This document shows positions 21,084-55,992 of a stretch of DNA of 64,000 nucleotides, one piece after another. The notes below the pieces were generated by a model. The model was given only the letters and a program-made list of their open reading frames with translations, was not told the DNA's origin and made no database searches. Every line of letters starts with the position of its first letter. Position 1 is the first letter of the stretch. The stretch is from positions 2,025,501-2,089,500 of the forward strand of contig CP123444.1 of the NCBI GenBank assembly GCA_029866965.1, given 5' to 3'. Position numbers and translations under genes: made by a program. This DNA comes from Flavobacteriaceae bacterium YJPT1-3. Lineage in GTDB: Bacteria > Bacteroidota > Bacteroidia > Flavobacteriales > Flavobacteriaceae.

Positions 21084-21095
21084 TGTTTTTTTGTT

Positions 21096-21122: not shown

Positions 21123-21148
21123 CTTTAGTCATCAGTTGGTAGTCGGTA

Positions 21149-21529: not shown

Positions 21530-21542
21530 AACCTTTATTTTA

Positions 21543-23386: not shown

Positions 23387-23388
23387 AA

Positions 23389-26762: not shown

Positions 26763-26805
26763 TGATTTAAATCATTTCCTAGCCTCCTAGACCCCTCTAT
26801 TTTTA
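26763..26805 (+). promoter_or_regulatory. Crp/Fnr-type operator plus -7 element, mlaE operon
   Basis: TGATTTAAATCA at 26763-26774, then exactly 23 nt, then TATTTTTA at 26798-26805, a TAnnTTTG-like -7 element. The palindrome centre falls near -41.5, the class II activator position. Confidence 0.75.
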
Positions 26806-32850: not shown

Positions 32851-32893
32851 CAAAGTTGTTGTTTCTCAACGAGTTCAATTATGACGAGAATCA
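32851..32893 (-). promoter_or_regulatory. Crp/Fnr-type operator plus -7 element, exporter operon
   Basis: On the - strand TGATTCTCGTCA (32882-32893), 23 nt, then CAACTTTG (32851-32858), one mismatch to TAnnTTTG. The ATG of the adaptor is 17 bp further. Confidence 0.7.
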
Positions 32894-34884: not shown

Positions 34885-34959
34885 GTAAGGTAGCTCCCGC
34901 TGTCGGCTGCAACAATGAGATTCGTCATAGATGGGCAAGAGCCCTTGCTTTTACTTTAG
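34885..34959. promoter_or_regulatory. Divergent Crp/Fnr-type operator between WG-repeat and outer-membrane genes
   Basis: TGAGATTCGTCA at 34916-34927. On the - strand TACCTTAC (34885-34892) is 23 nt away; on the + strand TACTTTAG (34952-34959) is 24 nt away. One palindrome may drive both directions. Confidence 0.6.
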
Positions 34960-34979
34960 CCCTCGTAAAATTGGCGTTT

Positions 34980-35570
34980 ATGCGACTCAAAACCCTCCTT
35001 CTTACCGCGCTTCTTATGTTGAGTGTTCTCCCATTGGACTGCTATGCACAGGAGGCTTGGAACCTCTCTTTTTCACCGGCACTGAATTTTCCTATTTCCA
35101 AAGTGCAGGACGAACCGCTTCGAATTGGGAACGGTTTTGAATTCGGTGTAGACTATCAGTGGTCTGAACGTATTCAACCGTACGTAGGCGTGATCTGGAA
35201 TCGTTTCGATACCGATGAAGACTTTGATGAGCCCAATATCCGCTATGTGCAAAAGGGGGTGGCTGTGGGTTTGAGATACCACTTTGCCTTAGCCAACGGT
35301 AAAGCTAAAATCTGCTTTCTCCGCGGAGGGATGGTTTTGATGGATTTACGAACGCGGAGCGAAGGTGGGGAATTTGACATAAACACCTCCTTCAATATCG
35401 GCGCACAATTTGGGGCCGGCCTTTCTTTACCTCTAGCTCATCAGTGGGCGCTTCGGCCGGAATTACGATGGACGCTTATCAATCATCAAGCAGATGCCCC
35501 TTTTTCATCGGCAGACCTAGACTTTAGACACCTTTCCTTGGCAGTGGGGCTCAGATACAGTTGGCAATAA
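34980..35570 (+). CDS. Outer-membrane beta-barrel protein, ~196 aa
   Basis: A signal peptide (MRLKTLLLTALL..., ending CYAQ) precedes alternating beta-strand segments (FGVDYQWSERIQPYVGVIW, AVGLRYHFA) and a C-terminal strand ending RYSWQ, as in OmpW/OmpA-like eight-stranded barrels of Bacteroidota. ATG 34980 gives a normal signal. No TonB box. Its role in the stress island is unknown; small barrels can act in envelope stability or diffusion. Confidence 0.8.
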   Translation: MRLKTLLLTALLMLSVLPLDCYAQEAWNLSFSPALNFPISKVQDEPLRIGNGFEFGVDYQWSERIQPYVGVIWNRFDTDEDFDEPNIRYVQKGVAVGLRYHFALANGKAKICFLRGGMVLMDLRTRSEGGEFDINTSFNIGAQFGAGLSLPLAHQWALRPELRWTLINHQADAPFSSADLDFRHLSLAVGLRYSWQ

Positions 35571-35608
35571 TACCCTCAGCGCTGCCGGATGCGCATTCAA
35601 GCAGGAAC

Positions 35609-35651
35609 TGACCAATATCATGGTAAGGGTGCACAGTGCCACCTACTTTTA
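35609..35651 (+). promoter_or_regulatory. Crp/Fnr-type operator plus -7 element, hibernation factor-USP operon
   Basis: TGACCAATATCA (35609-35620), 23 nt, TACTTTTA (35644-35651). The start codon is 15 bp beyond. Confidence 0.75.
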
Positions 35652-35666
35652 ATCAAAATAAAGATC

Positions 35667-35975
35667 ATGAAGGTAGTTTTCCAATACGTCAAAATGAAGG
35701 AAAGTGAAACGCTGAGCAACATCACCAGGCATCAGCTTGAAAAGTTGCACAAACGCTTTCCGTATTTTATGAGAGCTAATGTGTTTTTTAAGATGGAACA
35801 GGGCAATACCGATGCCATTCGGACCTGTGAGATCGAATTGACCGGTCCCGGACCCATACTCTTTGCCACCACAACGGCTGCCAATTTTGAACAGGCCATG
35901 AAAGAAACGGTATCCGACTTACAACGTCAATTGCGCAAGCGCAAAGAAATCTATAAACCCCATTTAAATCGATAA
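35667..35975 (+). CDS. hpf: Ribosome hibernation factor, HPF/RaiA family
   Basis: A 102-aa short HPF/YfiA-type protein that binds the 30S decoding region and silences ribosomes in stationary phase. ATG 35667 is used; the frame upstream to 35589 crosses the promoter. Seen: a beta-alpha-beta-beta-beta-alpha layout with FKMEQGNTDAIRTCEIEL and a basic last helix (LQRQLRKRKEIYKP). Co-transcribed with the USP gene 2 bp downstream. Confidence 0.85.
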   Translation: MKVVFQYVKMKESETLSNITRHQLEKLHKRFPYFMRANVFFKMEQGNTDAIRTCEIELTGPGPILFATTTAANFEQAMKETVSDLQRQLRKRKEIYKPHLNR

Positions 35976-35977
35976 CG

Positions 35978-36814
35978 ATGAAAAAGATTCTAGTACCCGT
36001 CGACTTTTCCGAGCATTCTAAAAACGCACTTCAGGTGGCGGCCGCTTTCGCGAAGGCGCACCAAGCAGAAATTCTGGTCGTACACATGATGGGATTAAGT
36101 GATGCGGTCTTGACCCGAGACGAAGATCAGGAAATTGCCGAAGCCGTATTTCATATGAAATTGGCCAAGAAGCAATTCAGACAGTTCTTGGATGAAGATT
36201 TTCTAAAAGGAATTAGGGTCTCAGAGATGGTGCAGAATTACACGGTCTTTGAAGAACTCAATGAGATTGCCAAAGAGCAGGACGCCGACTTTATCGTGAT
36301 GGGCTCTCATGGTACGACCAATCTTCGTGAAGAATTTGTAGGCAGCAACACCGAGCGCGTGGTGCGAACCGCAGAAGTTCCGGTATTGGTGGTTAAGAAT
36401 AGCCTGGGCGATTTCGCCATTAAGCAAGTACTCTTTGCCTGCGATTTCAAAACCGAAAATGTGAAGCCCTATCGCGAGGCCATGGCTTTTTTTGAGGAGT
36501 TAGGTGTTCAGGTGCATTTGGTTTATGTGAATCTGCCCGCAGACCGTTTCAGAAGTTCCAAAGAAATAGAAGAACGCATGGACGATTTTCTCAAACTGGC
36601 AGAATTTAGTAAACCCACGTTCCGTAAAGAATTGGTGATAATCAATGGCTACACTATGGAAAGTGCCCTATACGACTATGCTGTGAAAGTAGGGGCAGAC
36701 GCGCTGGCCATATCCACGCATGGCCGCAAAGGCCTGGCTCATTTCTTCAAGGGAAGTATAGCAGAGCATTTGGTGAACCATACGCAATTGCCCGTCTTTA
36801 CTTTTAAAATGTAA
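35978..36814 (+). CDS. Universal stress protein, two-domain
   Basis: A 278-aa tandem UspA protein. Domain 1 starts KKILVPVDFSEHSKNAL and has the ATP-binding motif GSHGTTNLREEFVGSNT (G-x2-G-x9-G-S). Domain 2 ends with STHGRKGLAHFFKGS, also near-complete. Likely ATP-binding and acting in stress or dormancy. A variant palindrome (TTTCGCGAAG, 36046) encodes AFAKA. It shares an operon with hpf, away from the main USP cluster. Confidence 0.9.
   Translation: MKKILVPVDFSEHSKNALQVAAAFAKAHQAEILVVHMMGLSDAVLTRDEDQEIAEAVFHMKLAKKQFRQFLDEDFLKGIRVSEMVQNYTVFEELNEIAKEQDADFIVMGSHGTTNLREEFVGSNTERVVRTAEVPVLVVKNSLGDFAIKQVLFACDFKTENVKPYREAMAFFEELGVQVHLVYVNLPADRFRSSKEIEERMDDFLKLAEFSKPTFRKELVIINGYTMESALYDYAVKVGADALAISTHGRKGLAHFFKGSIAEHLVNHTQLPVFTFKM
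36044..36057. repeat. Variant of the iterated palindrome (TTTCGCGAAG core)
   Basis: One core mismatch; in the USP gene at 35978, read as AFAKA. Confidence 0.7.
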
Positions 36815-38814: not shown

Positions 38815-38857
38815 CCAAGGTAGTTCGGAAAGAGCAGGTGTTCTATGAGTAAAATCA
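38815..38857 (-). promoter_or_regulatory. Crp/Fnr-type operator plus -7 element, RsiV-like gene
   Basis: On the - strand TGATTTTACTCA (38846-38857), 23 nt, TACCTTGG (38815-38822). The site is only 9 bp upstream of the end of the MscS gene. Confidence 0.65.
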
Positions 38858-39784: not shown

Positions 39785-40192
39785 TCAGTCGGCGAGATTC
39801 AAGAACAGTTTTAATTTTCCCAAAAGGACCAGCTCCGATTTATTCATTCCTGAGAAGGAGCTGGCAATCGCCCGGGCTGTTTTGAATATAAGTCGGTCGA
39901 TTTCTGGAGTGAAGTATTCCGGGAATGTCGTTCTGAAGTCTACAAAGTCGCGATAGGTTTCTTCAGAACTGAGCTGAAAATAGTCTGAACCTTCAAAAAC
40001 GACTTTGATCAGGTGGGCAGCATCCTCTCCCATTACATCCTCTAGATCATCAATGGCCGTCCAATAGTCGCTTACATAGCGCTGAAGACGTTGATATTCT
40101 TCCTCCCTCACCTCCCGGTCAGCATTAGCGATAGCATAAAATAGCTTTCCCAAACTGTGATAAAAGGATAAGCTTTTCGTAGAAGACTCCAT
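39785..40192 (-). CDS. TerB-like helical protein
   Basis: A 135-aa cytoplasmic protein, all helical, with the TerB-type start LGKLFYAIANADREVREEEYQRLQRYV. TerB domains bind divalent metals and appear in stress loci; here there are no other ter genes. It is the first gene of the TerB-MscS operon, 21 bp from a -7 element with an ideally spaced operator. Confidence 0.7.
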   Translation of the reverse strand: MESSTKSLSFYHSLGKLFYAIANADREVREEEYQRLQRYVSDYWTAIDDLEDVMGEDAAHLIKVVFEGSDYFQLSSEETYRDFVDFRTTFPEYFTPEIDRLIFKTARAIASSFSGMNKSELVLLGKLKLFLNLAD

Positions 40193-40213: not shown

Positions 40214-40287
40214 TAAAGCTAGGCTTAGCCAACAAAAGGAATCATGACTTTGGTCATTGTTCATACCTCGCTAGCATCTCAATTTTA
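40214..40287. promoter_or_regulatory. Divergent Crp/Fnr-type operator between TerB-MscS and the sigma-like gene
   Basis: TGACTTTGGTCA at 40245-40256 has a -7-like element exactly 23 nt away on both sides: TAGCTTTA (40214-40221, - strand) and CAATTTTA (40280-40287, + strand). Confidence 0.7.
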
Positions 40288-40306
40288 TGCTCTAATCTTG
40301 AGACCC

Positions 40307-41071
40307 ATGAGCACTTCCTTTTCCAATAACAAAGCCCCTCAAAAGAACTATCGTCTGTATGTAGAACAGTATTATCAACAGTTGTATCGCTATCGCAGTG
40401 ATGAACAACGCGATCAGTTCTTAGCCATGCTCATCGCCTTACTGCCGGAACTGGAAGGGTATGTAAAACTACGCTTAGATCAGGCCGTCCATGCGGGAAA
40501 TTTTCCCCACAACAAGTACAAGCCGCAGGATGTCACCGATGATCTTTACTTGATCTTGTACGCCAGTTTCGACGAGATTGATAATGAAGATGAATTTTAC
40601 CTCTGGCTGTTTGAAAAGACCAATCAGGTCATCGAAGAGTTGATCGCCAATGAAGCCGAGTACGCAGCCCGTTTCGAATCGCTGGATCGCTATTCAAACG
40701 CAGAATGGCGCGGACTTAAAGAGCGTTTCACCAGCGAGTTTGACGGCGATTTGATCATGAAGGAAGATCTTACCGACGTCTCATATAAAATACCAAAACT
40801 TCAATGGAGCCACTTCTTAACCGGTACCGATAAGGAGCAAGAATGGGATCAAAAGATTGATGCTTTGCTTCAACAAGAACAAGCTGATCAAGAACTGGAT
40901 CGCTTACTGGAGCGGCTCTCCTTTCGCGTACGCGAAATCGTTCAACTCCATCATAAATATTTATTCTCTGTTGCTGAGATCGCCCGACTGAAGAACGAAT
41001 CGAAGGGCGATGTAGAGCAGGCTTTAGAAGAAGCCAAACGAATCATTCAAGTCAGTTTATTTAATTCTTAA
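40307..41071 (+). CDS. Sigma-70-like transcription factor, 254 aa
   Basis: ATG 40307 is chosen because the frame upstream contains the operator. The N-terminal half (YVKLRLDQAVHAGNFPHNKYKPQDVTDDLYLILY) resembles region 2 of ECF-type sigma factors, and the C-terminal half (RLSFRVREIVQLHHKYLFSVAEIARLKNESKGDVEQAL) resembles region 4 with a helix-turn-helix. The linker of ~120 residues is longer than usual. It may be a divergent sigma factor or a sigma-derived regulator for part of the island. No anti-sigma gene is adjacent. Confidence 0.7.
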   Translation: MSTSFSNNKAPQKNYRLYVEQYYQQLYRYRSDEQRDQFLAMLIALLPELEGYVKLRLDQAVHAGNFPHNKYKPQDVTDDLYLILYASFDEIDNEDEFYLWLFEKTNQVIEELIANEAEYAARFESLDRYSNAEWRGLKERFTSEFDGDLIMKEDLTDVSYKIPKLQWSHFLTGTDKEQEWDQKIDALLQQEQADQELDRLLERLSFRVREIVQLHHKYLFSVAEIARLKNESKGDVEQALEEAKRIIQVSLFNS

Positions 41072-41343: not shown

Positions 41344-41355
41344 TGATTTTCATCA
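41344..41355. promoter_or_regulatory. TGA-N6-TCA palindrome upstream of the histidine kinase
   Basis: TGATTTTCATCA. At 23 nt the -7-like matches are weak on both sides (AAGAATTG on +, GAACTTGG on -), unlike the other sites. It could feed back on the kinase-regulator operon or drive the small - strand gene. Confidence 0.4.
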
Positions 41356-41425: not shown

Positions 41426-42655
41426 ATGAAATTTTTTGAAAAAAGTATAGAGGAAGCCTTCCTGATCTTGTTTGAAGGGGCTTCCGAAGGCATAGTGGTG
41501 GTTAATTCGGCACAGGTCATTGTAGCGACCAATGAATCAGCCCGCACCATTTTTGGTTATCGGGAGAAGGAATTGGAGGGGAAACCCTTAAATATCCTGA
41601 TTCCTGATAAGTATGAGCAGGCCCATCGTCACCACTTTGAGGATTTCATGCATCACAGCAAAAAACGTCGTATGGGCCATGGCCGCGACTTGTACGGAGT
41701 CCGTAAAGACGGAACGACTTTTCCAGTAGAGGCCGGACTCAATCCCTTTGTCTTGCACAACCATCGTTATGTTATGGCACTAGTTTCAGACATCACCTTA
41801 CGTAAGAAACAGGAAAGGGAAATTCTGGAACTGAATGAGCATTTAGAGGAGAGAATCGAAAAGCGAACCCACACGCTCAACGAGACCGTTTCCCAGTTAA
41901 AGGAGGAGGTAGCTCTACGTCTGGAGGCTGAAAACAACGCCAAAGAAGCCTTACGGCGGGAAAAAGAACTCAATGAATTAAAAACGAAATTTTTATCCTT
42001 GGTTTCCCACGAATTTAAGACACCATTAAGCGGTATTGCCTCCTCAGCCAGTTTAGCCGCAAAGTATACCAAAGAAGAACAGCAGGAGAAACGGGAGAAG
42101 CATTTTAAAACTATTCAATCAAAGGTCAAATACCTGAATACCATCATTGATGATTTTCTGTCTATCGAGCGATTGGATAGCAATAAAACGACCTACCGTT
42201 ATACCCGATTTCCGTTGAGCCAGGTCTTGGATGAAGTCGTGTACGATGCCCAGGTCCATTTAAAGCAGGGCCAGCAGATCAATTATCCTAAAAATGCAGA
42301 AGAATTTGAATTGGAGTTTGACGCCAAAATTTTGGAGCTGGTGCTTAAAAATTTGCTGCATAATGCATTGAAATATTCCCGTGAAAATTCTCAGGTAACC
42401 CTGAATATTAGCGAACAGGAAGAGTATATCAAATTAGACATCACAGACGAAGGGATAGGCATTCCTCAAGAAGAGCAGAAATTTATTTTCGATCGTTACT
42501 TTAGAGCGGCTAATGTCTTGACTACGGCAGGCACAGGCATCGGACTTAATATTGTAAAAAGTCATATCGAAAATCTAGGTGGAGAGATCAGTTTTACCAG
42601 TCAGGAAGGAGAAGGCTCCACCTTTACTATATTAATCCCATATAAGAATCACTAA
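41426..42655 (+). CDS. PAS-domain sensor histidine kinase
   Basis: A 409-aa soluble kinase without transmembrane segments. PAS domain ~10-130 (GIVVVNSAQVIVATNESARTIFGY, GRDLYGVRKDGTTFPVEAG), coiled coil ~130-185, HisKA with His195 in LVSHEFKTPLSG, and HATPase ~290-405 (NLLHNALKYS, DEGIGIPQEEQ, GTGIGLNIVKSH). The PAS F-helix has a His cluster (AHRHHFEDFMHH) near the FixL haem-ligand position, so gas or redox sensing is possible but unproven. Its TAA overlaps the ATG of the regulator gene, so the two are a pair. Confidence 0.92.
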   Translation: MKFFEKSIEEAFLILFEGASEGIVVVNSAQVIVATNESARTIFGYREKELEGKPLNILIPDKYEQAHRHHFEDFMHHSKKRRMGHGRDLYGVRKDGTTFPVEAGLNPFVLHNHRYVMALVSDITLRKKQEREILELNEHLEERIEKRTHTLNETVSQLKEEVALRLEAENNAKEALRREKELNELKTKFLSLVSHEFKTPLSGIASSASLAAKYTKEEQQEKREKHFKTIQSKVKYLNTIIDDFLSIERLDSNKTTYRYTRFPLSQVLDEVVYDAQVHLKQGQQINYPKNAEEFELEFDAKILELVLKNLLHNALKYSRENSQVTLNISEQEEYIKLDITDEGIGIPQEEQKFIFDRYFRAANVLTTAGTGIGLNIVKSHIENLGGEISFTSQEGEGSTFTILIPYKNH

Positions 42656-43704
42656 TGGAACGTATTTTAATTATTGAAGACGACACCGCGTTACGGGAAA
42701 ATATAGCAGAACTTCTCGAACTTAGCGGATATCAAACCTTGACCGCAGCCAATGGCACCCTAGGTGTTGATCAGGCCCTTAGACATCAGCCCAACTTGAT
42801 TGTGTGCGATATCATGATGCCCGAAATGGATGGATATCAGGTCTTGGAAGTGCTATCCCACGATGCAAATACCCAGCATATTCCTTTTATCTTTTTATCG
42901 GCGCGAACCGAGCACGCAGAAATAAGGAAAGGGATGGATTTAGGGGCTGATGATTACCTGACCAAGCCTTTTGAGGAAGAAGAATTGCTTAGCGCCATCA
43001 GGAGCAGACTCGCAAAGGCTCATCTGTTGGAAAAAATGCTCAAGGCGCCGACTGAGGAAGGAGGAGAGGAAAGTGAATTGCGCAGTTTGCATCAATTAAA
43101 AAATTTCTTTGACGATGAGGGGGAGATTAAAACCTTCAAGAGTGGAGAAGCGATCTACAAGGAGGGAGACCATTCCAACAACATTTTTCTAATCCTTAAA
43201 GGGGTAGTCAAAACCCATAAGATAGAAGAAAGCGGAAAGGAGTTGACTACGGCTTTGTTTCAGGAAGATGATTTTTTAGGATTCACCTCTTTTTTTGAGA
43301 ACGCTCCCTATCAAGAATCTGCCACGGCCATGCAGGACGTAGAAGTAGCAGCCGTGAGCAAAAAAGAATTACGGGGCATTCTGGAACACAGCAATCAGGT
43401 ATCCTTAGAGTTTGTCGAGCTCCTGGCAGAGAATCTTACCGAAATCAAAGGGCAATTGTTACAAATGGCCTACAGCTCAGTTCGCAAAAAAACAGCGCAA
43501 ACCATACTGCAGTTTGCACAGGTACTCAGAAAGAAACCGGAGGATCCCATCCGTATTTCACGCAATGACCTCGCTCACGTGGCCGGTATCGCAACCGAGA
43601 GTTTGATTCGCACGCTATCTGCCTTTAAAAAGGAAGGGCTCATCGAGATTGAAGGCAGAAATATTAAGTTGGTCGATCAGAAGGCTTTAGAACAAATCGA
43701 TTAG
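42655..43704 (+). CDS. Response regulator with cNMP-binding and Crp-type DNA-binding domains
   Basis: A 349-aa REC-CAP fusion. REC ~1-122: acidic pocket IIEDD, phospho-Asp52 in CDIMMPEMDG, Thr/Lys switch LSAR and TKPF. CAP_ED ~145-255 (FKSGEAIYKEGDHSNNIFLILKGVVKTHK). HTH_Crp ~275-345: ISRNDLAHVAGIATESLIRTLSAFKKEGLI. The recognition helix keeps the Glu and Arg (E-SLI-R) that read the TGA half-site in CRP and FNR. No FNR-type N-terminal Cys cluster. It is the natural candidate to bind the TGA-N6-TCA operators of this island. Confidence 0.93.
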   Translation: MERILIIEDDTALRENIAELLELSGYQTLTAANGTLGVDQALRHQPNLIVCDIMMPEMDGYQVLEVLSHDANTQHIPFIFLSARTEHAEIRKGMDLGADDYLTKPFEEEELLSAIRSRLAKAHLLEKMLKAPTEEGGEESELRSLHQLKNFFDDEGEIKTFKSGEAIYKEGDHSNNIFLILKGVVKTHKIEESGKELTTALFQEDDFLGFTSFFENAPYQESATAMQDVEVAAVSKKELRGILEHSNQVSLEFVELLAENLTEIKGQLLQMAYSSVRKKTAQTILQFAQVLRKKPEDPIRISRNDLAHVAGIATESLIRTLSAFKKEGLIEIEGRNIKLVDQKALEQID

Positions 43705-43710: not shown

Positions 43711-43753
43711 TGATTTTTGTCATTTCTTGCCTTAGGAGTGGCGGTTAGTTTTG
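43711..43753 (+). promoter_or_regulatory. Crp/Fnr-type operator plus -7 element, first USP gene of cluster
   Basis: TGATTTTTGTCA (43711-43722), 23 nt, TAGTTTTG (43746-43753), a perfect TAnnTTTG match. Confidence 0.8.
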
Positions 43754-43772
43754 ATTGGTTAACCGTCCAATC

Positions 43773-44570
43773 ATGACACGAATACTGATTCCTGTAGCAT
43801 TTTCTACAACTGCACGGCATGCGGTCTTATGTGTGCTCCAACTCTTTAACCAAGCTGCGGTTCAATTCTTTTTGTGGAATACAGAAGCCATAGATTCCTC
43901 AGCGCCGGAGACCGATCGCAGCGTGCTTCAAAAGATGACGGAATTCATGAAGCAGTTACAGGATGTCGTTTCGGCCGGTCAAGAACTCATACCGATATTC
44001 AGCAGTACCTTTGGAGGTCAAGATTTGGAGCCTATCCTGAAGCAGCACCAGATTGATTTGCTGGTATTATCCCATCCCTTGCAACGGTCTATCCAAGTTT
44101 TTGACACCGAGATGGCTTTAAAACGACTGGTCTATCAGGTAAAAATTCCGGTGCTCATTCTACCACAACACTGTTCATGCAGGCCGCTCAAACAAATTGC
44201 CTTGTTGACCAATTATCAACAGCGACACAGTATTCAGGCTACTTCGCAGGTTAAACGACTTGTTGAAATCCATGAAGGCTGTCTTCAACTTATACATTTG
44301 TCAAAGAAGCACACAGCCCTATCTGAACATCAAAAAGAAAATAAAGAATTTCTGGAAAGCGCCCTGGACGGCATACCTATTGACCATCAGTTCATCACAG
44401 CAGAAAATCCGGAACAAGCGCTACAGCAACATAACCAAGGTCACGCTATTGATGTGCTCCTTTTCTTTGCTAAGAATATCAACCTCTCAGAGCACTATGT
44501 GTTCCCTGCATTAAACAATTCAACTATAGCTTCTGCTCCTAAGGTACCTATTCTGGTCATCCACGAGTAG
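43773..44570 (+). CDS. Universal stress protein-like, degenerate ATP site
   Basis: A 265-aa two-domain UspA-fold protein beginning MTRILIPVAFSTTARHAV. The G-x2-G-x9-G-S/T motif is missing where domain 1 should carry it (LLVLSHPLQRSIQVFD), so it probably does not bind ATP and may act as a partner of the other USPs. ATG 43773 is chosen because ATG-like codons upstream lie in the -7 region. Monocistronic between two operators. Confidence 0.8.
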   Translation: MTRILIPVAFSTTARHAVLCVLQLFNQAAVQFFLWNTEAIDSSAPETDRSVLQKMTEFMKQLQDVVSAGQELIPIFSSTFGGQDLEPILKQHQIDLLVLSHPLQRSIQVFDTEMALKRLVYQVKIPVLILPQHCSCRPLKQIALLTNYQQRHSIQATSQVKRLVEIHEGCLQLIHLSKKHTALSEHQKENKEFLESALDGIPIDHQFITAENPEQALQQHNQGHAIDVLLFFAKNINLSEHYVFPALNNSTIASAPKVPILVIHE

Positions 44571-44574
44571 CGAC

Positions 44575-44617
44575 TGATTTTAATCATAGTTTCGACTGAA
44601 ATCCCTGTCTAGTTTTG
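44575..44617 (+). promoter_or_regulatory. Crp/Fnr-type operator plus -7 element, three-gene USP operon
   Basis: TGATTTTAATCA (44575-44586), 23 nt, TAGTTTTG (44610-44617), a perfect TAnnTTTG match; ATG 44637 lies 19 bp further. Confidence 0.8.
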
Positions 44618-44636
44618 AATCAAGACCGGTGCTGCT

Positions 44637-45482
44637 ATGCGAACAATTATATTTCCTACTGATTTTTCTGATTGTGCTTTGAATGCACTCTGTTGCGCTA
44701 TGCAGTATTTCAAATACGAGCGCACAGAGTTTATCCTACTGCACACCTACGCAGAAGAAGTTTACGCCAATGATAGTTTAATGTCCAGAGAACTTCTGGA
44801 GGACTTTAAACAAATAAAAAAGAAAGAAGCAGAGCAGGGACTTCAACGAGTTTTCCAAGATGCGCGTAAAATGGAGCCCAACCCCAGGCATCAATTTTCT
44901 CAGCATGCGCGCTTTGGGTTACTTCTCGATGAAGTCAATGATTTGGTCAATGCACTCAATGCCGATCTTATCGTTATGGGCACACAGGGCAAGACCGCCA
45001 GTAAAACGATAACTTACGGCAGTAATACGTTACAGGTGATGAAGTACGTGAAGTGCCCTGTACTTGCGGTGCCGGCCAGCTTCACCTACCACCGCCCTAC
45101 CCATGTCTTATTTCCTTCTGATCTGATGATCCCGTTTAAAGCGCGCGAGCTCAAGCTCATTGCCTGCCTGGCTAAAAGCTTCCGCTCCACCTTGCACTTG
45201 CTCCACCTGTCTAAATCGAAGCAGCTCTCCATACGTCAGGAAGATGTCAAATCGCAATGGGAAGAAAGCTTTCGCGAAAGCAAAACTGAATTTGTGATGG
45301 TTAGTGAGGGAGACCGGGCAGAGCGCATCAATGACTATATCGAACACCATCAAATTAATCTGCTAGTGATGGTCAATTTCAGACATACCTATATGGAATC
45401 GCTATTAATTAATTCAACCATAGACCAGGTGGGATTAAATACTCAGATCCCTTTTCTAGTCCTTCAAAACTTACCTCGTTAA
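44637..45482 (+). CDS. Universal stress protein, two-domain
   Basis: A 281-aa protein starting MRTIIFPTDFSDCALNAL. Domain 1 has GTQGKTASKTITYGSNT, a full ATP-type motif; domain 2 lacks it. First gene of a three-USP operon (gaps 10 bp, then 4-bp overlap). The palindrome at 45270 encodes FRES in domain 2. Confidence 0.9.
   Translation: MRTIIFPTDFSDCALNALCCAMQYFKYERTEFILLHTYAEEVYANDSLMSRELLEDFKQIKKKEAEQGLQRVFQDARKMEPNPRHQFSQHARFGLLLDEVNDLVNALNADLIVMGTQGKTASKTITYGSNTLQVMKYVKCPVLAVPASFTYHRPTHVLFPSDLMIPFKARELKLIACLAKSFRSTLHLLHLSKSKQLSIRQEDVKSQWEESFRESKTEFVMVSEGDRAERINDYIEHHQINLLVMVNFRHTYMESLLINSTIDQVGLNTQIPFLVLQNLPR
45268..45281. repeat. Iterated palindrome GCTTTCGCGAAAGC
   Basis: Exact 14-mer in the USP gene at 44637, read as FRES. 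Confidence 0.95.
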
Positions 45483-45492
45483 TCCGTACATC

Positions 45493-46356
45493 ATGAAAAA
45501 TATTCTCCTTCCTACCGATTTTTCTGAACCCTCTTATAATGCCATGGACTATGCCTTGCGCATTTTTGATGAAGAACCGTGTAATTTTTTCGTCTTACAT
45601 ACGTATACGCCAGTCGTATTATACACCTCTACAGTCTATGAAACCCATAGCGCTCTCGATTTTGATCTGGAGCAATTGTATAAAAACAATGCGCTCGAAA
45701 AGGTGCACGCAGCCATTGATCGCTTGAAAACGATAACAACCAAAAACAGGCATACCTTCAAGGCCCTGTCGGCCTATAATGTGCTCAGTGTTGAAGTGGA
45801 CGAAGTAGTCGAAGAGTATGGGATGGATTGCATCGTCATGGGTACCCAAGGTGCCAGTGGTTTAAAAGAGGTTTTTGTGGGCTCTCAGACCATGCAGGTG
45901 ATCAAACAGGCGAAGGTTCCGGTCATTGGTGTGCCTGCCCAATATGCGTACGAAGGTCTAAAAGACGTCCTTTTTGCAACGGATTATTTAACCGGAGTTG
46001 ACCTAAAGGGACTGCCCTTACTGCGCTCCCTCTGCACAGAACAGATTTCCAGACTCATTTTTCTCAATGTCTATTTTGGAGTGGCCTTGAGTGAAAAGCA
46101 GCAAAAAAATAAGAAAGAGCTGGATGCCTATTTCAAAAAGGTAGCCCATCTGAATGAGATGATGGAAAAGGTAGAGGTCCTGGAGGCCATTGATCAATTT
46201 CAATCGAAACATAAGATCGATTTGCTGGTCCTGGTGCACAACAAACATAATTTCTTCGAAAATCTTTTATTTACGCCTATTGTGAAGCGGGTGGTGCACC
46301 ATTCCCAAACTCCATTTATGATTCTCCCACCGGTTAAAATGAAAACATCATCATGA
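45493..46356 (+). CDS. Universal stress protein, two-domain
   Basis: A 287-aa protein starting MKNILLPTDFSEPSYNAM with motif GTQGASGLKEVFVGSQT in domain 1 and a degenerate domain 2. Its closest relatives in the window are the USPs at 46353 and 47254 (shared GLKEVF or GLKAVF in the loop), which points to tandem duplication. Confidence 0.9.
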   Translation: MKNILLPTDFSEPSYNAMDYALRIFDEEPCNFFVLHTYTPVVLYTSTVYETHSALDFDLEQLYKNNALEKVHAAIDRLKTITTKNRHTFKALSAYNVLSVEVDEVVEEYGMDCIVMGTQGASGLKEVFVGSQTMQVIKQAKVPVIGVPAQYAYEGLKDVLFATDYLTGVDLKGLPLLRSLCTEQISRLIFLNVYFGVALSEKQQKNKKELDAYFKKVAHLNEMMEKVEVLEAIDQFQSKHKIDLLVLVHNKHNFFENLLFTPIVKRVVHHSQTPFMILPPVKMKTSS

Positions 46357-47195
46357 AGGTACTGATCCCTACCGATTTCTCAGCTGCGGCCACCAAAGCC
46401 CTGAATTATGCTCAGATGCTGTTTGAAGGAGCCAGCGTCGAATTTCATCTGCTTCATGCTTGTCAGGCCCCGACCTATAAAATTATTGGGAACAGAAGTC
46501 CGAGAAGCCTTAGTGCCGCTTTTGCAACTGAAAGGAGTAAACAAAAGGTGAGGCTTGATCAATACCTGGAAGATCAAGTGGGGAAGAGCAGTAATCAGTT
46601 CCATAACTACTACGGTGAGGTTCATCTAGGTACTTTGAAGGAAGTTTTGGACTCTGTGCGTTGGGATTCTTATGACTTTGTCGTCATGGGTACACGAGGT
46701 GCCACGGGTCTTAAGGAGGTTTTTTGGGGAAGTAATGCGTATGACGTGGCACGCATGCTACCCCCTGTGCCGGTCTTGTTTGTTCCAGAACACGCTACTT
46801 TCAGTCCTTTAAAGACCATCGGTTTCGCTACTGACTTTAGACGACCATTCACTGCTCAACAGCTCCGTTCCATCAAAGAAATTGCCTCCCTTTGGAAAGC
46901 TACCATTCATATGATCGAAGTGTATCGCACCCCCGAATTGAACGAAGAGCAAGAGCGCAATTTGGAAGCCCTTCAGCTTTATTTTAAAGATCTGGAACAC
47001 GAATTCCATGTCATTTCAGCCTTTGGAAACCTGGAGAGCTGTATCGCTGCCTTTGACGAGGAACTCGAAGTGGAACTGTTGGTTTTGATCAATTATCCTA
47101 AATCGTTCTTTCAACGTCTTGGCCGAGAGCCTATAATTAAGAAAGAACTATTTCATTCCCAAATACCCGTTCTGATCATCTCAGCCACGGGCTGA
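46353..47195 (+). CDS. Universal stress protein, two-domain
   Basis: A 280-aa protein starting MKVLIPTDFSAAATKAL with motif GTRGATGLKEVFWGSNA. It overlaps the preceding gene by 4 bp. Its TGA stop is also the first half-site of the next operator (47193-47204), so gene end and regulatory site are fused. Confidence 0.9.
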   Translation: MKVLIPTDFSAAATKALNYAQMLFEGASVEFHLLHACQAPTYKIIGNRSPRSLSAAFATERSKQKVRLDQYLEDQVGKSSNQFHNYYGEVHLGTLKEVLDSVRWDSYDFVVMGTRGATGLKEVFWGSNAYDVARMLPPVPVLFVPEHATFSPLKTIGFATDFRRPFTAQQLRSIKEIASLWKATIHMIEVYRTPELNEEQERNLEALQLYFKDLEHEFHVISAFGNLESCIAAFDEELEVELLVLINYPKSFFQRLGREPIIKKELFHSQIPVLIISATG

Positions 47196-47235
47196 TTCTT
47201 GTCATAAAATGATTGTTCTTTTCCTCGTATGTTAG
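47193..47235 (+). promoter_or_regulatory. Crp/Fnr-type operator plus -7 element, USP at 47254
   Basis: TGATTCTTGTCA (47193-47204), 23 nt, TATGTTAG (47228-47235), one mismatch to TAnnTTTG. Confidence 0.7.
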
Positions 47236-47253
47236 CGTTTTAATTTTCGTATT

Positions 47254-48096
47254 ATGCCACATATTCTTGTACCCACCGACTTTTCTACGAATGCGTACAA
47301 CGCTTTGTTTTACGCTTCTCGTTTCTTTAGTTACGAGCCGCTCAAGATTACCTTAGTACACTCTTTTGAAGAAGAACTTCGCCGTCAGCTCAGTGTTTCC
47401 AAGCGGGATAACCGCGATGAACTCTACGGGGAGATCAAAGAACAAATAGAAGACCGACTGGAAGCACTCCGTCATCAGATCATACGCGATACCGAAGATT
47501 ATGATGTTGAGGTTTTTTGCACAGAAACGGCTAGTCCGCTACACAGCTCCATCGATCATTTAATCAATATCACAGAAGCTGATTATCTCATCATGGGTAC
47601 CAAAGGAGCTTCCGGTCTGAAAGCGGTGTTTATCGGTAGCCAGACCGTATCCATCATGAAAAAAGCGCTTAAGATACCCATGATGGTGATCCCAGAGCAG
47701 AGTGATTTTCAGGCGCCTAACAAAGTGACCTATGCTACTGACTTTAAGGAGGATTATTCGGATCAGGTGGTTCCGCTGTTGAAAGAACTCTATAATGCCT
47801 ATCCCTTTCAAGTGCAACTCGTGCATGTATATACTCAAGAGACCCCCGAAGAGGAAGTGCAGCAACATTATCGCGAACTCAAAACCGCCCTGGATTTTCT
47901 GACGCACAGCACCCATTGGGTAGCCAGTAAAGAACCAAAAAATAAGGTAATTGCTGCATTTCTTCGGCAGCACTCGAGTTCGCTCTTGCTCATGAACTAT
48001 CACAAACATGGTTTTCTAAAAACGCTTTTGAATCGGTCGGTGGTAGAACGAGTCAGTTTTGACCTGACCGTACCCTTAATGCTCTTACCTGCCTAA
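47254..48096 (+). CDS. Universal stress protein, two-domain
   Basis: A 280-aa protein starting MPHILVPTDFSTNAYNAL with motif GTKGASGLKAVFIGSQT in domain 1. Domain 2 is degenerate. It is flanked on both sides by operator sites, so it is transcribed on its own. Confidence 0.9.
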   Translation: MPHILVPTDFSTNAYNALFYASRFFSYEPLKITLVHSFEEELRRQLSVSKRDNRDELYGEIKEQIEDRLEALRHQIIRDTEDYDVEVFCTETASPLHSSIDHLINITEADYLIMGTKGASGLKAVFIGSQTVSIMKKALKIPMMVIPEQSDFQAPNKVTYATDFKEDYSDQVVPLLKELYNAYPFQVQLVHVYTQETPEEEVQQHYRELKTALDFLTHSTHWVASKEPKNKVIAAFLRQHSSSLLLMNYHKHGFLKTLLNRSVVERVSFDLTVPLMLLPA

Positions 48097-48099
48097 ACT

Positions 48100-48142
48100 T
48101 GATATTTGTCATTTTTCAGGCAAGTGTTAGGGGGTAGTTTTA
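48100..48142 (+). promoter_or_regulatory. Crp/Fnr-type operator plus -7 element, USP-nuclease-RNase operon
   Basis: TGATATTTGTCA (48100-48111), 23 nt, TAGTTTTA (48135-48142); ATG 48164 follows. Confidence 0.78.
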
Positions 48143-48163
48143 TACAGATTTAAAAACGAAGCC

Positions 48164-49015
48164 ATGAAAAAACGAATTGCCTTACCCACCGACTTTTCTA
48201 AAAATGCCTGGAATGCTTGCGCCTATGCCTTTGAGCTGTTCAAAGATGAGGAGTGTATTTTCTATATCGTCAATGCTTATGAGGTCAAATCATACGCCCT
48301 GGGCGATATGATGGTGCCGGAACCTGGTCAGGAAGGCTACGAGCGCGCCGCTCAGATATCCAGCAATGGATTACATAAAATCCTGGATATGATCGATTTT
48401 AGGAATGAAAATTCTAAGCATAGTTTTGAAACAATCTCAGAGCTGAACAGTCCCATGGAGGCACTTAAGCAATTGATTGAAAAGAAAGATATTGATATGG
48501 TGGTCATGGGAACCAAAGGGGCGACCAATAGCCGCGCTGCCATATTGGGTAGTAATGCCGTTATGGCCATGGAGCACATTAGAAACTGCCCTGTACTGGC
48601 CGTACCTGCAGAAGCCCAGTTTGAGGGCGTTAAAGAAATCGTATTTCCAACGAGTTTTAAAACCCATTACAAACGCCGTGAATTGGAATACCTTACTGAT
48701 ATTGCTCAACACCACAACGCCACCATTGCTGTGGTGCATGTGGATAAGGATGAGGAGCTTTCTTCTTCTCAAGAGGAGAATAAAGAATTACTTCTTGACC
48801 GACTTGAGGGTGTTGAGGTAGCATTTCATCACCTGCGTGGAAGTAATCCCACAGATGCCGTCTTTCATTTTGTAGAAAGTAGAAAGAGCGATCTGATTGC
48901 CTTTGTGAACAAAAAGCACCTGTTCTTCGGGAGTATTTTCACTAATCCCATGGTTAAAGAATTGGGCATGTACAGTAAAGTTCCTTTGCTGGCCTTGCAC
49001 GATCTTAGAAACTAG
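48164..49015 (+). CDS. Universal stress protein, two-domain
   Basis: A 283-aa protein starting MKKRIALPTDFSKNAWNAC with motif GTKGATNSRAAILGSNA. It heads a probable three-gene operon with the ATP-cone nuclease and the beta-CASP RNase, which links USP signalling to nucleic-acid processing. Confidence 0.9.
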   Translation: MKKRIALPTDFSKNAWNACAYAFELFKDEECIFYIVNAYEVKSYALGDMMVPEPGQEGYERAAQISSNGLHKILDMIDFRNENSKHSFETISELNSPMEALKQLIEKKDIDMVVMGTKGATNSRAAILGSNAVMAMEHIRNCPVLAVPAEAQFEGVKEIVFPTSFKTHYKRRELEYLTDIAQHHNATIAVVHVDKDEELSSSQEENKELLLDRLEGVEVAFHHLRGSNPTDAVFHFVESRKSDLIAFVNKKHLFFGSIFTNPMVKELGMYSKVPLLALHDLRN

Positions 49016-49020: not shown

Positions 49021-49932
49021 TTGGTCTCCAGTACAAAGTTCACTTTCGTGAAATCCAAAACGGATCTAATCCCGCCTATTCCAGAAGCTGTGCAAAAATC
49101 AATTCAAATCAAAAAATCTTCTGGCGAACAGGTTGATTTCTCCATCCCCAAATTACGGGGGTCCTTGCTCAAGAGCGGGGCTGCTAAGCAGGAGGTAGAT
49201 CAGATCATTGACACCGTTCGCGATGAATTGTATCAGGGGATTTCCACCCGGGAGATCTACAACAGGGCGTTTGCCTTACTCAAAAAAAAGAAAAGGGTCT
49301 ATGCCTCCAAATACAAGCTCAAACGCGCTATTTATGAATTGGGACCTACAGGCTTTCCTTTTGAGCAATTTGTGGGGCAATTGTACCATTATGCAGGCTA
49401 CGAAGTAGCCGTGAACTGTGAATTGCAGGGTCAATGCGTCAAACATGAAGTGGATGTGGTCGCTCAGAAAAATAAGCATGTACTTTACATGGAATGTAAA
49501 TTTCATCGGGAGGCCGGCCGCAAATGCGATGTTAAGGTGCCTTTATATATCCATTCCAGATACCAGGATCTTATTCAGCATCCTCCCAACGTTAAAAAAC
49601 AAACGCAGGGCTGGGTCGTCACCAACACCCAGTTCACCGGCGATGCCGTGCAGTATGGTTCCTGCGTGGGCTTGTTGTTGCTCAGCTGGGATTATCCCAA
49701 AGATCAGGGACTGAAAGATATGATTGATCGATTAGGGCTCTATCCCATCACGGTGAGTACGCTGCTTTCCAACCGAGAGAAAGGATTTTTGCTGAGTAGA
49801 AATGTCGTTTTATGCAGACAACTTTTGAATGACCGCTTCTATCTGGACCATTTGGGAATCTCAGAGACCCGAATAAAGCGAATCCTCGAAGAGGTCGAAC
49901 AACTTTGTGATGTCGACAGCACCCTCCATTAG
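49021..49932 (+). CDS. ATP-cone domain fused to an Mrr-like restriction endonuclease fold
   Basis: Up to 303 aa; TTG 49021 follows AGGAGAG, and GTG 49048 is an alternative start. Residues ~25-110 form an ATP-cone (IKKSSGEQVDFSIPKLRGSL), the nucleotide-sensing domain of ribonucleotide reductases and NrdR. Residues ~115-210 are an Mrr_cat-type nuclease fold with the D-ExK core in HEVDVVAQKNKHVLYMECKFH. Together they suggest a DNA nuclease gated by ATP/dATP levels. The C-terminal ~70 residues are helical. It follows the USP gene by 5 bp and overlaps the RNase gene by 23 bp. Confidence 0.8.
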   Translation: MVSSTKFTFVKSKTDLIPPIPEAVQKSIQIKKSSGEQVDFSIPKLRGSLLKSGAAKQEVDQIIDTVRDELYQGISTREIYNRAFALLKKKKRVYASKYKLKRAIYELGPTGFPFEQFVGQLYHYAGYEVAVNCELQGQCVKHEVDVVAQKNKHVLYMECKFHREAGRKCDVKVPLYIHSRYQDLIQHPPNVKKQTQGWVVTNTQFTGDAVQYGSCVGLLLLSWDYPKDQGLKDMIDRLGLYPITVSTLLSNREKGFLLSRNVVLCRQLLNDRFYLDHLGISETRIKRILEEVEQLCDVDSTLH

Positions 49933-51310
49933 TCAAACCACAGTGCAGTTCTTAGGAGCTGCAAAAACAGTCACCGGCTCTAAGACCCTTGTGGAAGGTT
50001 TGGGGAAGAAATTGTTGATTGATTGTGGCGTATTTCAGGGGATCAAAGAATTACGTCAGAAAAACTGGGATCCTTTACCTGTAGCGGTAGATACTTTAGC
50101 TGTGGTGCTACTCACCCATGGTCATTTGGATCATGTTGGTTATTTACCCAGACTGCTCAAACAGGGGTTTCAAGGCGAAATATGGGGTACAGGACCCACC
50201 TTAGCCATTGCCCGAATCGTGCTGAGGGACAGTGGAAAAATCCATGAAGAAGAAGCGGAGCAGGCTAATAAAGAAGGCTATTCCGTACATCATCCTGCCC
50301 TGCCTTTTTTTACTCAGGACGAGGCGGAACAAACCATAGGCTTATTTCAAACCATTCCAGCCGAGCAGTGGCTAAGCCTGGGAGATAAAATGCAATGTCG
50401 ATTTAGGCCTGTGGGACATATACTCGGCGCCTGTTTTATTGAATTGGAAATGGATGAACGTCTTTTGGTCTTTTCCGGTGATGTGGGTAGGCCGGAAGAT
50501 TATTTATTGCGCCCGCCCGTTAAGCCAGAATGGGCTGATTTTCTATTTTTGGAGAGCACCTATGGAGATCGATTGCACATACATGAGAATCCGGAAGAGG
50601 AACTCGCCCGTATGGTTCGTCAGGTGGTTCTTACCCGAGGAACTTTAATCATCCCCACCTTTGCGGTAGAGCGTTTGCAATCGCTAATGTATCTGCTCTA
50701 TCGACTGTACCAAACGAATCGGATCCCCAATATTCCTATTTACGTAGACAGCCCTATGGGGTACAATACCCTGAAAGTATTCCAGCAGTATCCAGACTGG
50801 CACAAATTGAGTACGGAAGCCTATCAGGCCATGTGCGATCATGTTCATATCGTTTCTTCCTATGCGGAAACCTGGGAAGTGATCGATAATCCGCAACCGA
50901 AGATCGTGATCGCAGGTAGCGGAATGGTCACCGGAGGGCGCGTACTGACGTATTTGAAACAGCTGGTTGATGTAGGAACTACCCATATTTTGTTGGTGGG
51001 ATTTCAGGCAGAAGGCACTCGTGGAAGGCAATTACAAGAAGGTGCCCACGAAATTCGAATTTTCGGCCGATACTATCCGGTTAAAGCGCAAGTTCACCAA
51101 TTGCGAAGTCTCTCAGCGCATGCTGATCAGGAAGAGCTTTTGAATTGGCTGGATACCGTTAAGAACATTCCGGAACGGGTGTTCTTGATGCACGGCGAGC
51201 CGGGAGCCAGTGATGCTTTGCGTGTAAAATTGCAAAATACGTATCAGTGGCCTTGTGCGATCCCGCATCTTCACGAAAAATTTGTGCTCTTCTCTTCCAG
51301 AGCTGAGTAA
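49910..51310 (+). CDS. Metallo-beta-lactamase/beta-CASP RNase, CPSF-like
   Basis: A 466-aa RNA-processing nuclease. Zinc motif LTHGHLDHVG, then GHILGACFIELE, FSGDVGRP and STYGD; the beta-CASP part has PTFAVERLQ and VIAGSGMVTGGRV, and the RMMBL end has SAHADQEELLNWL. It belongs to the Ysh1/CPSF-73-like bacterial family (TTHA0252 type). Such genes often sit with usp and hsp20 genes in anaerobic stress clusters of other bacteria. ATG 49910 is used. Confidence 0.92.
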   Translation: MSTAPSISQTTVQFLGAAKTVTGSKTLVEGLGKKLLIDCGVFQGIKELRQKNWDPLPVAVDTLAVVLLTHGHLDHVGYLPRLLKQGFQGEIWGTGPTLAIARIVLRDSGKIHEEEAEQANKEGYSVHHPALPFFTQDEAEQTIGLFQTIPAEQWLSLGDKMQCRFRPVGHILGACFIELEMDERLLVFSGDVGRPEDYLLRPPVKPEWADFLFLESTYGDRLHIHENPEEELARMVRQVVLTRGTLIIPTFAVERLQSLMYLLYRLYQTNRIPNIPIYVDSPMGYNTLKVFQQYPDWHKLSTEAYQAMCDHVHIVSSYAETWEVIDNPQPKIVIAGSGMVTGGRVLTYLKQLVDVGTTHILLVGFQAEGTRGRQLQEGAHEIRIFGRYYPVKAQVHQLRSLSAHADQEELLNWLDTVKNIPERVFLMHGEPGASDALRVKLQNTYQWPCAIPHLHEKFVLFSSRAE

Positions 51311-51346
51311 TATCATAGTTTCAGCAGTGTTCTCCATATAATTTTA
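51304..51346 (+). promoter_or_regulatory. Crp/Fnr-type operator plus -7 element, 134-aa gene
   Basis: TGAGTAATATCA (51304-51315) overlaps the stop of the RNase gene; 23 nt later TAATTTTA (51339-51346), and ATG 51366 lies 19 bp beyond. Confidence 0.75.
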
Positions 51347-51365
51347 CGCCTTTAAACGATGGATT

Positions 51366-51770
51366 ATGGACACTCTATTTGAACAACAATTGGATGATTA
51401 TCATGCGGATGTAAAAGCGTGGAAGTCAAAATTAGCCCTGGTGCGAGATGAATTGATTTTTATTGATCATTTGCTGCACTCCTATGTTTTTGAGCCCAGA
51501 ACACCTAATTTATTCGAACGCTTAGAACAATTTAAGACCGATCTCAAAGAGATTAAAGAGTCCCTGAATGAAACCGAGGAGGTTCTGGCTAAACACGATG
51601 CTGAACTCAGTGGTTTATTGGATTGTGAGACGGTGGCCTGTGATGCAGCATTCGAACATCGGCATAAGGAAGCTAAAGAACACTACCGCCATTTTGCACT
51701 GGAGTACGGCAAGATCAAGCAGAATATATTTTCGTACTGCGGAAAAATATTGAAGAGTAATAAAAAATAA
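51366..51770 (+). CDS. Uncharacterised coiled-coil protein, 134 aa
   Basis: A soluble, all-helical protein with heptad-like leucines and a C-terminal segment LLDCETVACDAAFEHRHKEAKEHYRHFALEYGKIK. It looks like a distant paralogue of the 147-aa protein at 52411: same size, same order of helices, a similar start (W-x3-L-x4-DE-x2-FI/L) and a similar late D-x3-F-x2-H-x(5)-Y/H pattern. The two flank hsp20, suggesting a shared role in this regulon. No known family recognised. Confidence 0.75.
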   Translation: MDTLFEQQLDDYHADVKAWKSKLALVRDELIFIDHLLHSYVFEPRTPNLFERLEQFKTDLKEIKESLNETEEVLAKHDAELSGLLDCETVACDAAFEHRHKEAKEHYRHFALEYGKIKQNIFSYCGKILKSNKK

Positions 51771-51786
51771 GCATCTCGGTTTTAGC

Positions 51787-51829
51787 TGATTTCGGTCATA
51801 GTTAATTGTCATTCCGGCCTGTACATTTA
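51787..51829 (+). promoter_or_regulatory. Crp/Fnr-type operator plus -7 element, hsp20
   Basis: TGATTTCGGTCA (51787-51798), 23 nt, TACATTTA (51822-51829). The leader to ATG 51870 is ~40 nt, longer than at other sites. Confidence 0.75.
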
Positions 51830-51869
51830 TCCTGTCAAATAAATTATTAATGCTTTAAATGTTTAAGCC

Positions 51870-52313
51870 ATGTCACTGGTCAGATTTAACAAAAACAGAT
51901 TTCCTTGGTTTGCTAACGGAGCGACCGACGTATGGGATTCTAGCGATTTTCTTGCCGATGATTTTTTCACGCGTCAGGAAAGTTTACCCGCTATGAATGT
52001 CAAAGAAACCGAAAACGACTTTCAAGTCGAATTGGCTATTCCCGGCTTTTCTAAGGAAGAGATTGAGGTAACTATGGAGAACGATTTGCTTTTTATTCAA
52101 GGAAATCGCTCTCAAGAAGAAGTGGAAGAAGAGGAAGATTACACCCGCAAGGAGTTTAGCTACAACCATTTTGAACGCAAATTGCAACTACCCGCCACGG
52201 TAGATCAGGAAAAAGAGGTCAAGGCTAAGTACAAGAACGGTGTACTCCGACTGAATTTGGCAAAGTATCCAGAGAGCGCAGGTCAATCTAAAAAGAAGAT
52301 AGCCATCGCGTAA
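51870..52313 (+). CDS. Hsp20/alpha-crystallin small heat shock protein
   Basis: A 147-aa chaperone. The alpha-crystallin domain spans ~40-140 (MNVKETENDFQVELAIPGFSKEEIEVTMENDLLFI, YNHFERKLQLPATVD, AKYKNGVLRLNLAK) and the C-terminal tail is short and basic. A rho-independent terminator follows. In mycobacteria the DosR regulon also contains an Hsp20 (Acr) beside USPs. Confidence 0.94.
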   Translation: MSLVRFNKNRFPWFANGATDVWDSSDFLADDFFTRQESLPAMNVKETENDFQVELAIPGFSKEEIEVTMENDLLFIQGNRSQEEVEEEEDYTRKEFSYNHFERKLQLPATVDQEKEVKAKYKNGVLRLNLAKYPESAGQSKKKIAIA

Positions 52314-52330
52314 TCTGAGTGATTCGGAAG

Positions 52331-52373
52331 CTGCCCTCTTGTTTTTAGGGGAATCGAGGGCAGTTTCTTTTTT
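52331..52373 (+). terminator. Rho-independent terminator after hsp20
   Basis: Stem CTGCCCTC / GAGGGCAG (52331-52338 with 52356-52363), then TTTCTTTTTT. The T-run overlaps an iterated TTTCGCGAAA palindrome core (52371-52380). Read-through would supply the downstream gene. Confidence 0.85.
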
Positions 52374-52380
52374 CGCGAAA
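52371..52380. repeat. Iterated palindrome core TTTCGCGAAA, intergenic
   Basis: The only copy outside any coding frame, fused to the T-run of the hsp20 terminator. Confidence 0.85.
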
Positions 52381-52410
52381 GCGAAATACAACCTTTCGAA
52401 ATAGCAAATC

Positions 52411-53514: not shown

Positions 53515-53515
53515 T

Positions 53516-55949: not shown

Positions 55950-55992
55950 TAAATTTGAAAAAAGAGCGGCTACTATTCCGTGATTTTGATCA
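55950..55992 (-). promoter_or_regulatory. Crp/Fnr-type operator plus -7 element, DnaJ-type gene
   Basis: On the - strand TGATCAAAATCA (55981-55992), 23 nt, CAAATTTA (55950-55957), one mismatch to TAnnTTTG/A. The leader to ATG is ~45 nt. Confidence 0.65.

Follow-up and report, generated by a model that had tools for sequence, protein, structure and literature searches.

The sensor kinase and response regulator encoded side by side in Flavobacteriaceae bacterium YJPT1-3 probably form a two-component system whose response regulator is itself a Crp/Fnr-type activator, and which would answer low oxygen with class II activation of a survival regulon. Judged from the sequences compared here, the pair very probably turns on the surrounding stress-survival island from one fixed kind of promoter. 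The stretch analysed, referred to as the window, comprises 64,000 nucleotides (positions 2,025,501-2,089,500) of a single contig of 3.16 Mb. Within it, the sensor histidine kinase gene (41426-42655, +) was assigned from its Pfam domains, the FixL/DosP matches of its PAS domain in the PDB and residues shared with its orthologues, and the gene of the REC-cNMP-Crp response regulator (42655-43704, +) from its Pfam domains and invariant residues. The two ORFs have one base in common (TAATG).

The neighbourhood of the pair encodes an OMP, an S30EA/HPF protein, seven universal stress proteins (USPs), a purine nucleoside phosphorylase, a thioredoxin, an Mrr-like/ATP-cone protein, a beta-CASP MBL protein, Hsp20, a D-2-hydroxyacid dehydrogenase and CbpA; the names of the USPs, the thioredoxin and an MscS-like channel of the window were given by eye from the ORF translations. 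Among these, the six tandem genes USP2-USP7 (43755-49015, +) would be the core targets. The OMP, the S30EA/HPF hibernation factor and USP1 (34971-36814, +) are predicted targets as well, and further island members follow at 49021-54505 (+), namely the Mrr-like/ATP-cone and beta-CASP MBL proteins, Hsp20, unknown proteins and the D-2-hydroxyacid (lactate-type) dehydrogenase. The Mrr-like nuclease fold with its ATP-cone precedes the MBL protein (49021-51310, +), whose nearest NCBIfam models are aCPSF1 and type VII Cas14, both far under the cut-off, and the pair is kept in 29 of 60 islands. Between the gene of a 135-aa protein and the kinase gene lies that of a 275-aa protein (40244-41071, +) with a weak match to sigma-70 region 4 only. 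Elsewhere in the window, a 483-aa protein (12277-13728, +) fuses an AraC-type HTH to a BLUF blue-light domain, an unusual layout for a light-responsive regulator, and 14743-25641 holds molybdenum-cofactor synthesis genes, a xanthine-dehydrogenase-type oxidoreductase and XdhC/MobA-like proteins.

The pairing of this kinase with this regulator is widespread in Bacteroidota. A full-length regulator was found in 85 of 199 sampled Flavobacteriaceae genomes, one of these matches ending at residue 243, and the regulator was found in 44 of 296 genomes sampled across the phylum. With a single exception, which matched in the receiver only, these belong to the same class, where the architecture extends to further families. 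These frequencies rule out a rare or unique architecture, and the initial annotation, which had called it uncommon, was wrong on this point within Bacteroidota. Close relatives of the regulator are 49-71% identical to it and distant ones about 38-46%. The kinase adjoins the regulator on the same strand in 60/60 close islands and adjoins it in 27/30 distant loci. Both the domains and the pairing are well established at the level of sequence. Across the 60 islands, the recurring gene set includes USPs (in 59), the 135-aa protein (38), thioredoxin (30) and the Mrr/ATP-cone and MBL pair (29).

By Pfam, the kinase consists of PAS, HisKA and HATPase_c domains, with the PAS domain at about residues 16-124 followed by a coiled coil, and with H195 in HisKA as the phospho-acceptor. 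Compared against the PDB, the PAS domain matched FixL best and DosP next, and 13 of its first fourteen matches were FixL or DosP-type heme sensors (best 5e-13), the lone exception being another kinase. More specifically, H67 aligns with the proximal histidine of FixL and R87 with its ligand arginine, so that the window kinase combines best similarity to a heme PAS with both residues of a FixL-type heme-PAS kinase. A histidine at the FixL proximal position alone is no proof of heme; the combination nevertheless suggests that the PAS domain binds heme. In a distant relative from Sphingobacteria, the PAS domain of the partner kinase is plainly FixL-like (FixL match 7e-37).

An alternative with the same wiring and operators is that the kinase senses a cue other than oxygen, such as redox state, NO or membrane energy, through a PAS domain of FixL-derived fold without heme or with an altered ligand. 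R87 is kept in 48 of 61 close kinases and replaced in the other 13, as well as in about a third of the distant ones, so oxygen is not necessarily the ligand everywhere. Several orthologous kinases are longer, at 500-809 aa, and hence contain more input sequence, and this genome encodes no cbb3 FixO, which leaves it without the hallmark that oxygen-controlled regulons classically have. We nevertheless regard a non-oxygen cue as rather unlikely. H67 is kept in 60/61 close kinases, and both H67 and R87 are invariant in alignment A2, made up of 26 kinases (the window kinase and 25 others). None of the six further PAS domains that could be read in this genome has the proximal histidine, a comparison that covered these six and left three minus-strand PAS domains aside. 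Furthermore, in eight genera the kinase, the regulator, a USP and fnr lie in one cluster, mostly with the cbb3-oxidase CcoNO (COX1 + FixO) and CcoG/FixG nearby. Taken together, the FixL-like PAS domain, the kept His and Arg and the fnr/cbb3 neighbourhood make oxygen the best-supported signal, and low oxygen would most likely be the cue to which the kinase responds.

The regulator comprises Response_reg (residues 4-116), cNMP_binding (159-245) and HTH_Crp_2 (281-348) domains in Pfam. Its receiver has the conserved acidic pair E8 and D9, the phospho-acceptor D52 and K104, and the presence of a cNMP-type domain together with a Crp HTH that has the Glu and Arg of TGA-reading helices places the protein in the Crp/Fnr superfamily. 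Every sequence compared, 61/61 in the close set and 31/31 in the distant set, has Asp52, and the same holds for Glu315 and Arg319 of the recognition helix. The overlap of the two genes, the joining of a receiver (Asp52) to a CAP-type domain and a Crp HTH, and the Glu and Arg kept in the recognition helix, all described in the initial annotation, are thereby borne out. Its further proposal, that phosphorylation is combined with a second input from a nucleotide or other ligand, fared differently as regards a cyclic nucleotide on the CAP-type domain. Although the cNMP_binding domain is complete (70 bits in Pfam), alignment with mycobacterial CRP places F210 at the position of the cAMP-binding Glu and the Arg position within P-Y-Q-E. 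At position 210 most relatives carry Y/F/I/V, and around the Arg position relatives show E or D; the CRP contact pair (Glu72 and Arg82 in E. coli numbering) was found neither in the window protein (F210; Y219-Q220-E221) nor in its relatives. By this comparison the regulator family has lost the cAMP-contact residues, which makes a canonical cNMP input very unlikely and leaves a dual input of phosphorylation plus a cyclic nucleotide with hardly any probability. Given the replaced contacts in the relatives, the CAP domain resembles a module for dimerisation and activation that works without a ligand, though it may bind some other, non-canonical one.

Several familiar identities were ruled out for the regulator: a cAMP-responsive CRP by the lost contact residues; an Fnr with its own [4Fe-4S] cluster by the lack of a cysteine set, the single cysteine being C51 in the receiver; and FixJ by the output, which is cNMP plus HTH_Crp_2 and not a LuxR/NarL-type HTH. 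No NCBIfam model reached its cut-off with the regulator. In a tree, the Crp parts of the REC-Crp proteins group apart from the Fnr group, with long branches leaving the placement of the small Crp proteins unsure. Structure models of kinase and regulator had low pTM values (0.40 and 0.45), and their domain arrangement was for this reason not used; when the folds of the two models were compared over their full length, the matches were mostly to kinase cores and receivers, with the PAS and Crp parts barely covered. A search of the open-access literature, with subscription papers outside its scope, returned no description of this kinase-regulator system.

The putative operator of the system, TGA-N6-TCA, occurs 50 times in the window versus 22 +/- 5 times in shuffles, with 0 of 100 shuffles reaching 50. 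About 14 of these sites are in promoter position. In 11 cases a box resembling TAnnTTTG, with at least 5 of 6 letters matching, follows at a gap of exactly 23 bp, versus 0-2 sites for each of the other gaps from 15 to 31 bp. TAnnTTTG is the known -7 element of Bacteroidota. Of 427 conserved genes from the 60 orthologous islands, 275 have TGA-N6-TCA in their upstream region, compared with 12-35 of 427 when these half-sites are spaced by 2-5 or 7-10 bp; other triplets with a similar ratio have fewer than ten occurrences each. The consensus over these islands is (A/C)TGAT-N4-(A/G)TCAT. Measured from the end of the operator, TAnnTTT follows after precisely 23 bp in 167 cases; gap 0 accounts for 17 cases, and none of the remaining gaps larger than 0 for more than 8. 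Control dyads gave no peak in their gap to TAnnTTT. These counts argue firmly for the operator and for its fixed promoter position in the islands. Taken with the Bacteroidota -7 element, a 23-bp gap would centre the operator near -41.5, as in class II activation, and fits a class II Crp-dependent promoter, in which the operator takes the place of the upstream promoter element.

A scan of the own genome gave 14 occurrences of the composite pattern (reversed control, 1), eight of them within the window; one of the eight, at 35609, sits inside the HPF gene and is probably due to chance. Outside the window, at about 2,101,000 of the contig (L109), a composite promoter precedes a gene resembling CDP-alcohol phosphatidyltransferase. 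Genes of this type recur in other islands, some with an operator (L099:2365-2952), and are likely a further target. In Sphingobacteria, the full promoter is located 19 bp behind the regulator gene (L132, L134, L205, L206, L208).

The predicted operators of the window are arranged around the kinase-regulator pair on both strands. On the plus strand, TGATTTTTGTCA (43711-43722) and TGATTTTAATCA (44575-44586) are each followed after 23 bp by TAGTTTTG and would form the promoters of USP2 and USP3, respectively. With the same 23-bp gap, TGATTCTTGTCA (47193-47204, +) and TATGTTAG are assigned to USP6, and TGATATTTGTCA (48100-48111, +) and TAGTTTTA to USP7, from where transcription probably also covers the Mrr/ATP-cone and MBL genes behind it. 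Further downstream, the promoter of a 134-aa protein combines TGAGTAATATCA (51304-51315, +), 23 bp and TAATTTTA, and that of Hsp20 TGATTTCGGTCA (51787-51798, +), 23 bp and TACATTTA; Hsp20 has an operator upstream in 15/15 islands. Likewise on the plus strand, the MlaE/MlaD transport genes are preceded by TGATTTAAATCA (26763-26774), 23 bp and TATTTTTA.

On the minus strand, operators with a box at 23 bp are predicted for the conserved 135-aa protein (TGACCAAAGTCA, 40245-40256, then TAGCTTTA), for a 299-aa protein (TGATTTTACTCA, 38846-38857, then TACCTTGG) and for HlyD-FtsX-ABC export genes (TGATTCTCGTCA, 32882-32893, then CAACTTTG). The 135-aa protein (39785-40192, -) has no Pfam or NCBIfam match and adjoins the kinase in 38/60 islands; with an operator upstream of its gene in 29/34 orthologues and, counted over the islands that have it, in 34/38, it is an uncharacterised core member of the regulon. 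Other sites deviate from the rule. Between the WG-repeat and OMP/HPF/USP1 genes, TGAGATTCGTCA (34916-34927, +) has its box, TACTTTAG, at 24 bp; HPF orthologues have the full promoter in 14/14 cases. The operator TGATTTTCATCA (41344-41355, +) lies upstream of the kinase gene with no good -7 box at 23 bp. Kinase orthologues have an operator upstream in 45/57 cases and a composite in 13, and autoregulation of the kinase gene via this site is possible. Finally, TGATCAAAATCA (55981-55992, -) is located between the CbpA/DnaJ and LuxR-type genes and has a weak box, CAAATTTA.

To relate regulator and operator across genomes, the composite TGA-N6-TCA-N23-TAnnTTTG was counted in the same 199 Flavobacteriaceae genomes in which the regulator had been searched. 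Compared by presence or absence of the regulator alone, the counts differed, but 32 regulator-less genomes were still rich in sites, an apparent contradiction that was resolved once Fnr carriage entered the comparison. Encoded in the exception genomes is an Fnr, about 225 aa long, with an N-terminal C-x2-C and more cysteines, and its recognition helix, ATESAIR, is nearly identical to ATESLIR of the window regulator. Median composites per genome were 9 with REC-Crp only (n=37), 7 with Fnr only (n=69), 14 with both (n=48) and 1 with neither (n=45), and the reversed-pattern control had a mean of 0.4 in the class with neither and of 0.4-1.2 over the classes. The comparison of regulator only versus neither gave p = 6e-13; because the genomes are related, such p-values overstate independence. 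By these counts, REC-Crp and Fnr each predict the composite promoter by themselves, and the regulator is linked to its operator across genomes. The Fnr group (L254-L265, e.g. L257:9388-10065, +) replaces or accompanies REC-Crp across Flavobacteriaceae, and the two proteins share one promoter code as far as sequence can tell, which would place two sensing chemistries on one operator.

The initial annotation had counted 14 operators around the regulator gene, named the regulator as candidate master of the island through TGA-N6-TCA, and suggested looking for co-occurrence of this architecture with such promoters in other flavobacteria. The operator count agrees with ours, the co-occurrence is evident in the medians of 9 and 1, and the role as island master is well supported by the conserved island, the conserved spacing and the co-occurrence. 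It had also pointed out that a different Crp/Fnr protein matching the operators better would speak against this role. Such a reader is real in genomes that lack REC-Crp and whose composite promoters are explained by the [4Fe-4S]-type Fnr, but no Fnr of this type was found in the own genome, where the best hit reached 2.9e-30 versus 7e-58 or better for the Fnr group. With REC-Crp and without Fnr, this genome has REC-Crp as its only strongly supported candidate. The other cNMP proteins of the genome are a 645-aa frame, a kinase-like protein and three small Crp-like proteins, among which only L036 keeps Glu and Arg in an E..SR helix (HTH PETLSR). That one of these reads the island sites, leaving REC-Crp with other targets, is very improbable, since L036 has no Pfam HTH match, PF13545 exceeds its cut-off only twice in the genome with the second protein, L002, lacking the Glu, and genomes with REC-Crp only are promoter-rich.

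We propose that, when oxygen falls or respiration stops, the FixL-like PAS domain would change state and the kinase would autophosphorylate on H195 and transfer its phosphoryl group to D52 in the receiver. Once phosphorylated, the receiver would enable the Crp part to dock as a dimer on TGA-N6-TCA, its centre at about -41.5, from where, 23 bp upstream of the -7 box TAnnTTTG, it would recruit polymerase in class II fashion. In this scheme phosphotransfer, DNA binding, activation rather than repression and oxygen/heme as the signal are inferred. The predicted targets would constitute an energy-stress survival regulon of universal stress proteins, a ribosome hibernation factor, Hsp20 and others, and two proteins would do what FixL, FixJ and FixK do as three. 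On a larger scale, we lean slightly towards a Bacteroidota-wide oxygen/energy-stress regulon in which a FixL-like kinase acts on a receiver-Crp fusion with the FixJ step removed, its promoters being passed to or shared with the [4Fe-4S] Fnr depending on the genus. If this is true, two unrelated sensing chemistries feed one operator.

Aerobic Bacteroidota are dominant polymer degraders in sea and soil, and to our knowledge their oxygen regulation is poorly described. Our analysis offers a specific candidate regulator, an operator, a promoter geometry and a target list, together with a promoter rule for reading such genomes, TGA-N6-TCA-N23-TAnnTTTG. It also provides a putative example of a two-component system wired directly to a Crp-type activator, and would explain the universal-stress-protein islands of Flavobacteriaceae as one regulon, parallel to lxa and DosR.

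Among known systems, we compared the pair with the FixL-FixJ-FixK cascade of rhizobia, for which Burkholderia dolosa FixLJ served as a comparison case of the oxygen cascade (PMC5234846). Shared features are a FixL-like PAS kinase, a Crp/Fnr-type final activator at an Fnr-like palindrome and, in several Bacteroidota genera, a neighbourhood of fnr, cbb3 and ccoG. In contrast to the cascade, the present system skips FixJ (REC-LuxR HTH): a direct fusion joins the receiver to the Crp-type activator, which leaves no transcriptional step between them. The low-oxygen-activated (lxa) locus of Burkholderia cenocepacia contains six universal stress proteins and an alpha-crystallin Hsp20 and is thought to be under the Crp/Fnr protein BCAM0049/anr2, a FixK homologue of a type tied to anoxic survival in this species (PMC6127331, PMC9104464). 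It resembles our island in its USP and Hsp20 targets, but belongs to another phylum and has its regulator encoded by a Crp/Fnr gene of its own, the expression of which is controlled by FixLJ in the related B. dolosa. The lxa locus has in turn been compared with the DosR/DevR dormancy regulon of Mycobacterium tuberculosis (PMC6127331). This regulon shares with the present system the two-component control of USPs and alpha-crystallin in hypoxia, but differs in the types of regulator and kinase sensor. The DosR/DevR regulator is of the NarL type, and its kinases carry GAF heme domains. Closest to home, the Flavobacteriaceae themselves have the [4Fe-4S]-type Fnr (L257, L254 and others), whose recognition helix is almost that of the regulator described here and whose promoters have an identical architecture; unlike this regulator, Fnr has an N-terminal Cys cluster and no receiver domain, and would sense directly.
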